The notes beneath the pieces are model-generated. The model ran no database searches, was not told the DNA's origin, and worked only from the letters and a program-made list of their open reading frames with translations. From Bacillaceae bacterium (GTDB taxonomy: Bacteria; Bacillota; Bacilli; JACDOE01): a stretch of DNA of 64,000 nucleotides. Both the position numbers and the translations under genes were made by a program. The stretch is from positions 310,001 through 374,000 of the forward strand of contig JACDOE010000001.1 of NCBI GenBank assembly GCA_017656255.1, read 5' to 3'. This document shows, piece after piece, positions 11,853-40,378 of the stretch. How positions within the stretch are numbered: position 1 is the stretch's first letter; each line of letters begins with the position of its first letter.

Positions 11853-11901
11853 CTGTATAATAAAATAATCAAGAGCGTTTACACAGAAGGAGGATATGAA
11901 C

Positions 11902-12600
11902 ATGCCTGTCGGAATCATAGGAGCTATGGATGAAGAAATTGAACAGTACTTGAACGGTATGGAAATTGATGACCAGATCAATATTGCAGGGGTTGACTAT
12001 CACCGTGGCAAACTGGCGCAAAAAGATGTGGTCGTTTGCAAATCCGGTGTCGGCAAAGTAAACGCAGCCATTACCTGCCAGATCATGATTGATCATTTTA
12101 AGCCGAATTACATTGTGTTTACCGGTGTGGCGGGTGCCGTGGACCCCGAACTGGATATCGGAGACATCGTGGTATCCTCTGAGGCTCAATACCATGATAT
12201 GGATGCGTCTGCGCTGGGATTCAAGCGTGGGGAAATCCCTTTCGCCGATGTCTCTGTATTTAAAGCGGATGCATATCTGGTGAACCTCGCCTATCAGGCG
12301 AGTCTGGAAAATACAGAAGGGAAAAGTGTCACGGGCAAAATTCTGTCCGGGGATCAATTTATTGCAGACCGGGACAGGGTTCACGAACTTTATACCTTTT
12401 TTAAAGGAAGTTGCACCGAGATGGAAGGGGCAGCAGTGGCTCATGTCTGCTACAAGCACCGGGTTCCGTTTGTCATTGTTCGCAGTATGTCCGACCGCGC
12501 TGACGGGAAAGCCCACGTCAATTTTGCAGAATTTACGAAAATGGCGGCGGAACGTTCCTATCAGATTGTACAACGCATGATGCAACGGATAACCGAATAA
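11902..12600 (+). CDS. mtnN: 5'-methylthioadenosine/S-adenosylhomocysteine nucleosidase
   Basis: The enzyme hydrolyses MTA and SAH to adenine plus the thioribosyl moiety, clearing products of SAM-dependent reactions. The 232-residue product shows the family start (VGIIGAMDEEIEQ, with the catalytic Glu), GVGKVNAAI, VFTGVAGAVDPEL, EMEGAAVAHV and RSMSDRAD with the catalytic Asp. ATG 11902 lies eight bases after AAGGAGG; the earlier ATG 11896 is only two bases away and is unlikely. It sits where B. subtilis has acuCBA between motS and acsA. Confidence 0.93.
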   Translation: MPVGIIGAMDEEIEQYLNGMEIDDQINIAGVDYHRGKLAQKDVVVCKSGVGKVNAAITCQIMIDHFKPNYIVFTGVAGAVDPELDIGDIVVSSEAQYHDMDASALGFKRGEIPFADVSVFKADAYLVNLAYQASLENTEGKSVTGKILSGDQFIADRDRVHELYTFFKGSCTEMEGAAVAHVCYKHRVPFVIVRSMSDRADGKAHVNFAEFTKMAAERSYQIVQRMMQRITE

Positions 12601-35525: not shown

Positions 35526-36704
35526 ATGCGTCCTTTTCAGCGAATATTTTTAATGGTAATGGATAGTGTTGGAATCGGAGCCATGCCGGATGCTGATCAG
35601 TTTGATGACCGGGGAGCGAACACGCTTGGTCACATTGCCGAACATATGAATGGACTGGATATGCCTCATATGGCAAAATTGGGGCTCGGTAATATTGAAC
35701 CATTAAAAGGGATTCAACCGGTTGCGTCCCCTGTGTCCCATTTTGGTAAAATGAAAGAAGCCTCCATGGGAAAGGATACGACGACCGGACACTGGGAAAT
35801 CATGGGGCTCAGGATTGAGAAACCTTTTAAAACCTGGCCGAACGGCTTCCCGGATACCTTGATCAAACCGCTGGAACAGCGAACCGGACGAAAAGTCATC
35901 GGGAACAAACCGGCTTCGGGAACTGAAATTATAAAAGAACTGGGCGAAAAACATATAAAGACCGGAGATATCATCGTCTATACCTCAGCTGACAGTGTCT
36001 TGCAGATCGCCGCCCATGAAGAGGTGATCCCGCTGGATGAACTGTACCGCATCTGTGAGATTGCCCGTGAACTGACACTTGATCCGGAACATGCCGTGGT
36101 TCGCGTGATTGCCAGACCTTTTGTCGGCACACCCGGCCAGTTTGAACGCACGCCAAACCGAAAAGATTTTTCGATCAGTCCGCCGGCTCCCACCGTGATG
36201 AACCGGCTGGTTGATCAGGGATACGACTCGATTGCCATTGGCAAAATCTCTGATATCTATAATGGGGAAGGCGTTTCACAATCAATCAAAACGACATCCA
36301 ATATGGATGGGGTGGATCGCTTCATTGAAACAATGAGACAGGATTTTACCGGGCTCAGTTTTGTCAATCTGGTTGACTTTGATGCCAAATACGGACATCG
36401 CCGAAATCCGAAGGGGTACGGGGAAGCCCTTCAGGAACTGGATCGTCGGATTCCGGAGCTTTTGGACGCTCTTCAGAATGAAGACTTGTTGATCATCACC
36501 GCCGACCACGGGAATGATCCGACCCATCACGGAACGGATCATACCCGGGAGTATGTACCGCTGCTGGTTTATCACAACCACATTCGTGAAGCAGTCAATC
36601 TGGGTGTCCGGGACACCTTTTCAGATGTCGGTGCAACCATTGCTGATAATTTCGATGTAGACAGGCCACCATATGGGACCAGTTTTTTGCATGAGATTAC
36701 ATAA
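35526..36704 (+). CDS. deoB: Phosphopentomutase
   Basis: The enzyme interconverts ribose-1-phosphate (or deoxyribose-1-phosphate) and the 5-phosphate, feeding sugars freed by the phosphorylases into central metabolism. The 392-residue product of the alkaline-phosphatase superfamily shows [13 protein letters not shown] with the metal Asp, [13 protein letters not shown] with the nucleophilic Thr, and [19 protein letters not shown] with the C-terminal metal His/Asp set. The frame stays open upstream, but AAGGAGG before ATG 35526 fixes the start. First gene of the nucleoside salvage run deoB-PNP-PNP-pdp. Confidence 0.97.
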
Positions 36705-36718
36705 GAGGGGGAATCGAT

Positions 36719-37531
36719 TTGAAACAGGCTGTACAGGAAGCCAAAACATTTATTGAAAAAAAGGTGGATCTCCGGCCGGAAATCGGACTGGTGCTGGGGT
36801 CGGGACTGGGTGTACTGGCAGAAGAAATTGAAGACCCTGTTGTGATCAAATATCCGGATATTCCTCATTTTCCGGTTTCCACTGTGGAAGGTCATGCCGG
36901 TCAACTGGTTGTCGGCATGTTAAAAGGAAAAAAAGTGGTGGCGATGCAGGGGCGTTTTCATTACTATGAAGGATATGATTTAAAAGAAGTCACCTTTCCG
37001 ATCCGGGTGATGAAAGCGCTCGGGATCGAAAAATTAATCGTCACCAATGCGTCCGGCGGAATCAACGAAGACTTCGAGCCGGGTGATTTAATGCTGATTC
37101 AGGATCACATTAATATGACGTTTCGCAATCCGCTGATCGGGCCCAATGAAGACGAATGGGGCGTCCGTTTTCCCGATATGTCATCCGCCTATTCACCTGA
37201 ATTGCGGGAACTGGCCCGCAGGGTTGCGGACAGGCAGGGACTTTCATTAAGAGAAGGGATCTATGTTGGCTTGATCGGTCCCAGCTATGAAACGCCGGCT
37301 GAAATCCGTATGCTTCGAAAACTGGGTGGAGATGCGGTCGGCATGTCGACCGTGCCGGAGGTGATTGTGGCCCGGCATGCCGGAATTGAGGTGCTGGGCA
37401 TCTCCTGTATCAGCAATATGGCAGCGGGTATTCTTCCACAACCGCTTTCCCATGAAGAAGTCATGGAAACCACAGAGAGAGTTAAGTCACAGTTTCTCAC
37501 GCTCGTTCGAGGTATCATAGAAGCGATGTAG
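36719..37531 (+). CDS. Purine nucleoside phosphorylase (trimeric type), paralogue 1
   Basis: This PunA/PupG-type enzyme cleaves guanosine and inosine with phosphate. The 270-residue product has the phosphate loop LGSGLGVLAEEI, HAGQLVVGMLKGKKVVAMQGRFHYYEGY spread over residues 59-86, NASGGIN and GMSTVPEVIVARH. The base-contacting residues of 6-oxopurine enzymes are conserved: Glu191 in GPSYETP (human Glu201) and Asn233 in CISNMA (human Asn243). Start is TTG after GGGGG. The second copy begins 13 bases after its stop. Confidence 0.94.
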   Translation: MKQAVQEAKTFIEKKVDLRPEIGLVLGSGLGVLAEEIEDPVVIKYPDIPHFPVSTVEGHAGQLVVGMLKGKKVVAMQGRFHYYEGYDLKEVTFPIRVMKALGIEKLIVTNASGGINEDFEPGDLMLIQDHINMTFRNPLIGPNEDEWGVRFPDMSSAYSPELRELARRVADRQGLSLREGIYVGLIGPSYETPAEIRMLRKLGGDAVGMSTVPEVIVARHAGIEVLGISCISNMAAGILPQPLSHEEVMETTERVKSQFLTLVRGIIEAM

Positions 37532-37543
37532 GGGGTGTCAGGA

Positions 37544-38368
37544 ATGGAAAACAAGGTTAAAAAGATTGAAGAAGCAGCCTCATATATTCGGGACCATCTC
37601 TCATTTCTACCGGAGGTTGGTCTGATTCTCGGATCCGGCCTCGGTGTTCTGGCCGATGAAATTGAAGACGCCGTCAAACTGGACTATGAGGATATTCCTC
37701 ACTTTCCGGTGTCGACCGTGGAAGGCCATGCCGGAAAACTTGTTATCGGTCATCTGAACGGTAAAAAAGTGGTGGCGATGCAGGGACGTTTCCACTATTA
37801 TGAGGGCTACTCCATGAGTGAAGTGACATTTCCGTTATACGTGATGAAGGAATTGGGTGTCAGGGCGATGATTATCACCAATGCCGCCGGGGGGATGAAC
37901 CGCAATTTTTCCCCGGGAGACCTGATGATTATCACGGATCATATCAATTTTACCGGTAACAACCCTTTAATCGGACCCAATCCTGACAAATACGGTCCCC
38001 GGTTTCCGGATATGTCCCGTGCCTATACCCCGGAACTGGTTCAAGTCGCTGAACAGGCAGCGCAAAAAGAAGGCCTTCAGGTGCAAAAGGGGGTTTATGC
38101 CGGTATCAGTGGTCCTTCCTTTATGACACCTGCGGAATTGATTATGCTTCGCAACCTGGGTGCGGATGCCCTCGGCATGTCTACCGTACCGGAAGTAATC
38201 GCAGCCAGTCACTGTGGCTTGAAAGTTCTGGGAATATCCTGCATCACGGACATGGCAATCGGAGAAGAATTGGAACCCCTGACCCACGAACAGGTGATGG
38301 AAGTAGCGGAAAAGACAAAGCCCCGTTTTATCAAGCTGGTCAAATCGGCAATCCGGGGAGTGTCGTAG
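37544..38368 (+). CDS. Purine nucleoside phosphorylase family, paralogue 2 with altered base site
   Basis: This 274-residue tandem paralogue of the preceding gene keeps the phosphate and ribose motifs (LGSGLGVLADEI, GRFHYYEGYSM, NAAGGMN, GMSTVPEVIAASH). At the two positions that read the purine, however, it has Met194 (GPSFMTP) where human PNP has Glu201, and Asp236 (CITDMA) where human PNP has Asn243. 5'-methylthioadenosine phosphorylase has Ser and Asp there and accepts 6-aminopurines, so this enzyme may prefer adenosine-type substrates. ATG 37544 follows AGGGGGTG; GTG 37535 overlaps that site. Confidence 0.92.
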   Translation: MENKVKKIEEAASYIRDHLSFLPEVGLILGSGLGVLADEIEDAVKLDYEDIPHFPVSTVEGHAGKLVIGHLNGKKVVAMQGRFHYYEGYSMSEVTFPLYVMKELGVRAMIITNAAGGMNRNFSPGDLMIITDHINFTGNNPLIGPNPDKYGPRFPDMSRAYTPELVQVAEQAAQKEGLQVQKGVYAGISGPSFMTPAELIMLRNLGADALGMSTVPEVIAASHCGLKVLGISCITDMAIGEELEPLTHEQVMEVAEKTKPRFIKLVKSAIRGVS

Positions 38369-38371
38369 ACG

Positions 38372-39679
38372 ATGAGAATGGTCGATATCATCCATAAAAA
38401 AAGAAATGGAAAGACGCTCACCGAAGATGAAATCCGGTTTATGATTGAGGGATTTACCCGTGATGAAATCCCCGATTATCAGATGTCTGCCTGGGCGATG
38501 GCCGTTTATTTTCGAGGGATGACCGACGAAGAGACGGCTTATCTGACCCGTGCCATGGTCGAATCGGGAGATCAGGTGGATCTGTCGGCCATTGAAGGAA
38601 TCAAAGTGGATAAGCACAGTACCGGTGGCGTGGGAGATACCACAACCCTGGTACTGGCACCTCTTGTTGCCTCGGCCGGCGTACCGGTGGCCAAAATGTC
38701 GGGAAGAGGACTGGGCCATACCGGAGGAACCATCGACAAACTGGAATCAATTCCTGGCTTTCAGGTGGAATTGAGTCAAAATCAATTTGTTGATCGTGTC
38801 AATCGCCATAAAATTGCGGTGGTCGGACAAAGTGCCGACCTGACGCCGGCTGATAAAAAATTGTATGCGTTAAGGGATGTTACGGCAACGGTTGAATCCA
38901 TCCCCCTGATTGCCAGTTCTATTATGAGTAAAAAAATTGCAGCAGGTGCTGATGCGATTGTACTGGATGTGAAAACGGGAAACGGTGCTTTTATGAAAAC
39001 ACCGGAAAAATCAGAGGAATTGGCCCGTGCCATGGTGGCGATTGGAAAAAAGATCGGCAGGAAAACCGTCGCCGTTATCAGTGATATGAACCAGCCACTT
39101 GGACGCGCCATCGGGAATGCCCTTGAAGTCAAAGAAGCAATAGCCACCCTTAAAGGCCGTGGACCGGCGGACCTGACTGAACTTTGCCTGATCCTGGGAG
39201 CCCAGATGCTGGTTTTAGGGGGACGTGCCGATTCAGAAGCAGAAGCACGTAGGATTCTTGAGAACAGTATTCAATCGGGAAAAGCGGTGGAAACCTTCAG
39301 GCAATTTGTTCAAGGACAGGGAGGAAATCCTGACGTCGTGGATAATCCTGAACTGTTACCTTCTGCCCGGTATATCCGGGAAGTAACATCCGAACAGGCG
39401 GGTGTCATTCAACAGATTGATACAGAAGCACTCGGAACCCTGGCCATGAAACTGGGGGCAGGCCGTGAAACCAGAGATTCGAAGATTGACCAGGCGGCCG
39501 GTATTGAAATGTGTAAAAAAATAAATGATCGGGTGAATAAAGGAGAAACAATCGCCATCTTGCACTCGAATTATGTCGAAATAAACGATAATTTGATTAA
39601 TGAAACGAGAACGGCTTTCCGTTTTTCTGAACAGGGGAGAAAGGAAATAGAATTAATATACAAAATCATTCATGATTGA
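38372..39679 (+). CDS. pdp: Pyrimidine-nucleoside phosphorylase
   Basis: The enzyme phosphorolyses uridine, thymidine and deoxyuridine. The 435-residue product has the family signature [20 protein letters not shown] spread over residues 108-128, the N-terminal [18 protein letters not shown] helix, [13 protein letters not shown] (phosphate loop) and the C-terminal beta-alpha domain. It completes the salvage run with deoB and the two PNPs, starting three bases after the second PNP stop. In B. subtilis pdp lies in the separate dra-nupC-pdp operon, so its place here is a rearrangement. Confidence 0.96.
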
Positions 39680-39898: not shown

Positions 39899-40378
39899 AT
39901 GAAGAAGTTAGATAAGCTGGATTATCACATTATCGAATTATTACAGGAAGATGGCCGCCGTACATATTCGGACATGGCCGGCAAACTGGGGGTTAGTGAA
40001 GGAACGATTCGTTCCCGCATTAACCGGATGTTGAATGATAAAGTCTTTGAATTTATCATTCACACGGACCCTGAGAAGGTCGGACTTCAGGTTCAGGCGA
40101 TCATCGGGCTTTCTACCCAGCTGGGCAAACAGGAAAAAGTGGCGGAACAGCTCGGTCGTTACCCCGAAGTTCGGTTTATCGGAGCTTTTTCCGGCAAGCA
40201 CGACTTAATTCTGCAGGCCTATTTTCGTTCTAATGAAGATCTCGTTCATTTTGTTAACCGGGCGCTTTCCAGAATCGACGGAATCGTTTCCGCAGATGTA
40301 TCACTGGAACTGAAACAATATAAAGACTCATTTTCATATGTCGTTCTGAATGAAAAAACTGTTGAAGAACAGGCTTAA
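39899..40378 (+). CDS. Lrp/AsnC family transcriptional regulator
   Basis: The 159-residue regulator has an N-terminal helix-turn-helix (LDYHIIELLQEDGRRTYSDMA, then LGVSEGTIRSRINRM) and a C-terminal RAM/ACT-like ligand domain (VQAIIGLSTQLGKQEKVAEQL, then GAFSGKHDLILQAYF). Such proteins sense amino acids or other small molecules. GAAGGAGTAGAGC precedes the ATG. It sits directly upstream of the opp operon in the same direction, so it may control peptide uptake; that is inference from position. Confidence 0.93.
   Translation: MKKLDKLDYHIIELLQEDGRRTYSDMAGKLGVSEGTIRSRINRMLNDKVFEFIIHTDPEKVGLQVQAIIGLSTQLGKQEKVAEQLGRYPEVRFIGAFSGKHDLILQAYFRSNEDLVHFVNRALSRIDGIVSADVSLELKQYKDSFSYVVLNEKTVEEQA

Follow-up and report, generated by a model that had tools for sequence, protein, structure and literature searches.

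A second, tandem purine nucleoside phosphorylase as a likely adenosine phosphorylase in Bacilli that lack DeoD

Two PNP genes in a nucleoside-catabolic operon

The window, a stretch of 64,000 nucleotides from a Bacillaceae bacterium, carries two purine nucleoside phosphorylase (PNP) genes in tandem, flanked by deoB and pdp. All four genes lie on one strand (+), with successive gaps of 14, 12, and 3 nt:

35526 to 36704, + strand: deoB/drm, phosphopentomutase (TIGR01696, 613 bits against a cut-off of 341)
36719 to 37531, + strand: PNP copy 1, trimeric family, Glu/Asn, inosine/guanosine type (open reading frame from TTG; TIGR01700, 388 bits)
37544 to 38368, + strand: PNP copy 2, trimeric family, Asp type (Met/Asp), proposed adenosine/2'-deoxyadenosine phosphorylase (open reading frame; TIGR01700)
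38372 to 39679, + strand: pdp, pyrimidine-nucleoside phosphorylase (NF004747, 662 bits against a cut-off of 559)

Copy 2 is an intact open reading frame of 274 amino acids, with its ATG at 37544, 12 nt downstream of the copy 1 stop codon that ends at 37531, and its own stop codon ending at 38368. The purine-rich ribosome site for copy 2 adjoins the copy 1 stop codon. Downstream of pdp, positions 39899 to 40378 of the window hold a gene for an Lrp/AsnC-type regulator.

Both PNP copies scored well above the cut-offs of NCBIfam PRK08202 and TIGR01700. Copy 2 reached 367 bits (cut-off, 293) with TIGR01700, the model for inosine/guanosine-specific PNP I, as well as 357 bits (cut-off, 197) and 409 bits (cut-off, 218) with the trimeric PNP profiles TIGR01697 and NF006054. 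An AlphaFold2 model of copy 2, built from 36 aligned sequences (mean pLDDT, 91; pTM, 0.91), superposed on solved PNPs with Z scores of 40 to 42; these included Clostridium perfringens 8swu (Z, 42.1; 1.1 Å) and Thermus thermophilus 6tk9 (Z, 41.5; 1.2 Å), matched over 267 to 271 residues, nearly the full length.

Active-site residues and the copy 2 lineage

For residue mapping, the copies were aligned to human PNP with MAFFT; the human sequence and its numbering were verified with PDB chains. Copy 2 keeps Ser31, Arg82, His84, Tyr86, Asn113, Ala114, Phe154, Tyr185, Met212, Ser213, and His248, the counterparts of human Ser33, Arg84, His86, Tyr88, Asn115, Ala116, Phe159, Tyr192, Met219, Ser220, and His257, respectively; the catalytic residues for phosphate and ribose (Ser33, Arg84, His86, Asn115, Tyr88, Phe159, Met219, Ser220, and His257) are identical in it. 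As judged by this alignment and the predicted structure, copy 2 is shown to share its fold, phosphate site, and ribose site with ordinary trimeric PNP. Three codons of interest were located from the alignment:

38123 to 38125, + strand: codon of Met194 (human Glu201)
38249 to 38251, + strand: codon of Asp236 (human Asn243, Asp220 of MTA phosphorylase [MTAP])
38285 to 38287, + strand: codon of His248 (human His257; MTAP Val233), the 5'-OH site being kept

In the preliminary description, human Glu201/Asn243 had been matched to Glu191/Asn233 in copy 1 and to Met194/Asp236 in copy 2, and the alignment agreed, down to the residue numbers; the Met and the Asp might have lain off the base site, and both fall on it. 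Alignment to 1cb0 likewise bore out Ser/Asp as the pair that MTAP carries at these two positions. Glu201 and Asn243, by which 6-oxopurines are recognized, are kept in copy 1 and absent from copy 2, and the Asp at position 243 combined with loss of Glu201 that marks the T. thermophilus enzyme TthPNPII is found in copy 2.

Typing of 227 distinct relatives showed that the difference is no accident: 143 were Glu/Asn, and the other 84 had Asp as the second residue of the pair (42 Met/Asp, 23 Glu/Asp, 12 Leu/Asp, 4 Cys/Asp, 2 Ser/Asp, and 1 Gln/Asp). In every tandem pair read from Bacilli, copy 1 was Glu/Asn and copy 2 was X/Asp, where X was mostly Met, also Leu, Cys, Gln, or Ser, and rarely Glu. 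Within this class, Asp in copy 2 and Asn in copy 1 were without exception, and the phosphate and ribose sites were unchanged. At all 64 loci with the two copies, the Glu/Asn gene immediately precedes the Asp gene in the same orientation.

A tree of 172 rows placed 88 Glu/Asn relatives and two Glu/Asn structures, 8swu and 3la8, in a single clade of 90 rows with an SH-aLRT support of 99, and all Asp sequences fell outside it. Bacilli copy 2 sequences formed a group of 57 with a support of 92 (not starred); it takes in Met, Leu, Cys, Gln, and Ser forms together with two Glu variants. Because the Glu/Asn clade is separate from all Asp sequences, copy 2 is an old paralogue; the tree, which sets the two copies on opposite sides, ruled out a recent tandem duplication. 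The Met/Asp pair, offered at first as the purine-recognition pair of copy 2, did not hold as its defining mark: the position of Glu201 is occupied by Met, Leu, Cys, Gln, Ser, or Glu in the same clade, and Asp236 alone is diagnostic. From the sequences compared, then, Asp is the fixed mark of the copy 2 lineage, whereas the residue in place of Glu201 can vary freely, which may reflect release from recognition of the purine N1-H and 2-NH2 groups.

Human PNP and one long-branched Lachnospiraceae row also lay outside the Glu/Asn clade despite being Glu/Asn. The latter (L102:3968-4816) joins the Asp lineage in the tree, which might be explained by reversion to Asn or by an artefact of the tree. Tandem pairs were also seen in Clostridia (L057, L063, L085, L086, L094, and L097), where the second copy is Glu/Asp. 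Caloramator has no deoD above the cut-off, and Clostridium polynesiense has one.

Purine enzymes of the genome and distribution of deoD in Bacilli

The genome from which the window derives is estimated to be 98.9% complete and encodes four PF01048 proteins, namely, the two PNP copies, mtnN, and a divergent MTAP-like protein. The preliminary description had suggested a search for hexameric deoD and mtnP; deoD proved to be absent, and no mtnP was recognized: no protein genome-wide exceeded the TIGR00107 cut-off for DeoD, the best being mtnN (40 bits against 232), and no MTAP was found above its cut-off in this genome. The mtnN gene lies in the window itself:

11896 to 12600, + strand: mtnN, MTA/SAH nucleosidase (NF004079, 280 bits against a cut-off of 169)

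Its product is predicted to handle 5'-methylthioadenosine without a phosphorylase. A search of the same genome for adenosine deaminase (PF00962) found none; APRT and a YlmD/LACC1-family protein (PF02578) are present. Relatives of the latter are reported to act both as purine nucleoside phosphorylases and as adenosine deaminases, and this protein could be another processor of adenosine; along with the breadth of specificity of copy 2, it is a main source of doubt about the role proposed below.

The relation between the Asp copy and deoD was surveyed in an evenly drawn set of 299 Bacilli genomes, each at least 95% complete. A trimeric-type PNP was present in 204 of them and deoD in 223. Asp copies were called by sequence where the sequence was obtained and by score in the remaining genomes. 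On this basis, 58 of the 204 genomes carried an Asp copy, with deoD absent from 52 and present in 6; of the 146 without one, 140 had deoD and 6 did not (Fisher P of ~1e-34). Shuffling within families gave no arrangement as extreme in 20,000, and shuffling within genera gave 11 in 20,000. The exclusion recurred inside families f4, f12, f18, and f22 and genera g4, g12, and g49. Only 5 independent pairs could be drawn on supported branches (3 in the same direction and none opposite), too few for a test, and stratified permutation and a likelihood test were therefore relied upon. With the copy 1 tree of 103 genomes as a stand-in for the species tree, a dependent model of evolution was preferred over an independent one (likelihood ratio, 53.9; 4 degrees of freedom; P = 5.5e-11), and fitted deoD loss was ~15.5 with the Asp copy versus 0.001 without it. 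We infer that deoD was lost almost solely where the Asp copy is present.

An Asp copy and no deoD above the cut-off were found in Cohnella caldifontis, Salibacterium qingdaonense, Polycladospora coralii, Baia soyae, Marininema halotolerans, and Paenibacillus sp. YN15. In contrast, deoD accompanies Glu/Asn PNP alone in Bacillus velezensis and B. spizizenii; L040 and L041 behave like the named genomes. Adenosine deaminase, present in 37 of the 299 genomes, is too rare in the class to explain the pattern. The six genomes in which an Asp copy coexists with a seemingly intact deoD are G030 (Gln/Asp), G064, G168, G179 (Aneurinibacillus tyrosinisolvens), G202, and G284 (Glu/Asp), of which G168 and G179 have 7 to 8% estimated contamination; in these six, the two enzymes may be redundant or may differ in substrate. 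A supposedly decaying deoD in G202 and in C. polynesiense was dropped from consideration, as the apparent internal stop is the normal end of the reading frame. Neither gene was detected in G018, G038, G020, G040, G051, and G093; G020 has adenosine deaminase.

Proposed substrate of copy 2 and division of work

It is highly likely, from its residues and its distribution, that copy 2 acts as an adenosine/2'-deoxyadenosine phosphorylase in place of hexameric DeoD. Asp236, in the position of Asn, would engage N7 and the 6-amino group of the adenine base as an acceptor and donor of hydrogen bonds, and with Glu201 lost there would be no anion to read the N1-H and 2-amino groups of hypoxanthine and guanine, as known PNP chemistry suggests. 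Copy 1, which keeps Glu/Asn, would take inosine and guanosine. Ribose-1-phosphate from both enzymes would go to the phosphopentomutase encoded in their operon, and adenine released by copy 2 would pass to APRT. Of the split of labor first put forward, with oxopurines for copy 1 and adenosine-type nucleosides for copy 2, the adenosine part is likely and the 5'-methylthioadenosine part is not; the absence of deoD here, its near exclusion by the Asp copy in Bacilli, and the Ala/Asp PNP of Thermus all point to the former, the genomic pattern being the strongest of the new evidence. Work is thus probably divided between the copies according to the base.

The specificity switch itself is already known from mutants, and the function is known from TthPNPII. 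Calf and human PNP with the N243D change cleave adenosine, as the preliminary description had stated for the human enzyme, and retain cleavage of guanosine and inosine beside it (PMC6274182). Human E201Q:N243D, altered at exactly the two positions that differ in copy 2, cleaves adenosine-based prodrugs, whereas the wild type does not (PMC2799393); unlike copy 2, it is engineered and eukaryotic and has Gln rather than Met. In T. thermophilus, TthPNPI acts on 6-oxopurines only and TthPNPII on 6-aminopurines only (PMC11430614). TthPNPII is a 179-kDa hexamer of 29.8-kDa subunits with 200 U/mg on adenosine, and TthPNPI has a mass of 153 kDa with 25.5 kDa per subunit (PMC8073115). PDB entry 6tk9, titled T. 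thermophilus PNP, comprises six chains of 271 residues and carries Ala/Asp (FAS.../ITD). Its subunit size fits TthPNPII and not TthPNPI, and so, from organism and size, 6tk9 is most likely TthPNPII (TT_RS00985). On that assignment, a natural X/Asp member of the family is very probably adenosine specific. TthPNPII and copy 2 have in common the trimeric-PNP fold, a subunit of ~30 kDa, Asp at human position 243, and loss of Glu201 (to Ala in TthPNPII), but TthPNPII lies far off in the tree and is reported to be a hexamer. Its partner TthPNPI is a DeoD-size enzyme of 25.5 kDa, whereas the partner of copy 2 is a tandem Glu/Asn trimeric-type PNP.

Among bacterial enzymes, the trimeric PNP I proteins PupG and PunA (TIGR01700) share 60 to 66% identity with copy 2, along with its fold, phosphate and ribose sites, and operon context, but have a Glu/Asn base site and form a separate clade. 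DeoD, which is hexameric and accepts adenosine, has the physiological role proposed for copy 2 but belongs to a different PNP subfamily, and it is absent where copy 2 occurs save in 6 of 58 genomes. The PNP of Bacteroides fragilis (8swt) and the second copies of Clostridia resemble copy 2 in having Asp at position 243 and in lying on the same side of the tree, but keep Glu at 201; Bacteroidota loci have a single copy. No kinetics for Bacteroides PNP were found in the limited literature searched. The Aneurinibacillus enzyme AmPNP prefers inosine and has some activity on adenosine (PMC6983109); its primer-derived ends match exactly neither of the two A. tyrosinisolvens copies.

Copy 2 could instead be a broad PNP that replaces DeoD, itself broad in many bacteria, by accepting adenosine as well as inosine and guanosine. 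The activity that mammalian N243D retains on inosine and guanosine means that copy 2 may be dual (PMC6274182), E. coli DeoD accepts both kinds of purine (PMC11430614), and the structure of the Glu/Asp enzyme 8swt contains the inosine-type analogue immucillin-H. We consider this possible but doubtful, as copy 2 is without Glu201, the reader of the N1-H and 2-amino groups, TthPNPII with Ala at that position is reported to use 6-aminopurines only (PMC11430614), and a Glu/Asn oxopurine copy always adjoins copy 2 in Bacilli. It is improbable that copy 2 is a second oxopurine PNP whose base-site change is neutral and whose link to deoD reflects shared ancestry alone. TIGR01700 does name both copies inosine/guanosine specific, the genomes are related, so that the counts are not independent, and just 5 independent pairs lie on supported branches; against this, the Asp is unchanged throughout the clade, the deoD link repeats within families, within genera, and in the tree likelihood test, and introducing this Asp by mutation confers activity on adenosine.

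The wider reading that we favor, with somewhat less assurance than the assignment of copy 2 as an adenosine phosphorylase, is that copy 2 represents an old, misannotated subfamily of adenosine-specific trimeric-type PNP that has repeatedly displaced DeoD across Bacilli, the tandem pair (Glu/Asn plus X/Asp) covering both purine types with one fold. No paper describing a Bacilli-wide tandem pair with displacement of DeoD was found in the limited set of literature searched. Since Asp-type copies exceed the TIGR01700 cut-off (367 versus 293 bits for copy 2), annotation pipelines name both kinds alike. If the reading is correct, databases and metabolic models assign a wrong substrate to thousands of copy 2 genes, and genomes lacking deoD are mistakenly taken to have no means of cleaving adenosine. 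Base preference could then be predicted from a single codon, that for Asp or Asn at human position 243, copy 2 would be a natural counterpart of the switch engineered in human E201Q:N243D, and the subfamily would supply many candidate enzymes for the production of adenosine-type drugs, cladribine among them.

The likeness of copy 2 to MTAP drawn in the preliminary description holds at the N7/C6 side of the base site, where both have Asp at 243 and a small or neutral residue at the 201 position, and fails at the sugar site. His257 in PNP and Val233 in MTAP separate 5'-OH from 5'-methylthio recognition, and copy 2 has His248 there; in place of Asp222, the second Asp of the MTAP base site, it has Ala238. 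Given these two residues and the presence of mtnN, 5'-methylthioadenosine is an unlikely substrate, and a function as MTA (or methylthioinosine) phosphorylase, to which X/Asp at MTAP Ser178/Asp220 would point, is very improbable and was rejected, as copy 2 belongs to another subfamily (TIGR01694, 98 bits against a cut-off of 275; PNP model TIGR01700, 367 bits) and its neighbors are nucleoside-catabolic genes.

The divergent MTAP-like protein of the same genome has 291 amino acids and an MTAP fold (L004:1420-2295, - strand; contig C16, ~32.7 to 33.6 kb; 103 bits against 275), and its gene adjoins one for an HAD-type hydrolase. It shows the reversed pair, Glu/Asn, at the positions of human MTAP Ser178/Asp220, and its substrate, going by these residues, is perhaps a 6-oxopurine (thio)nucleoside.
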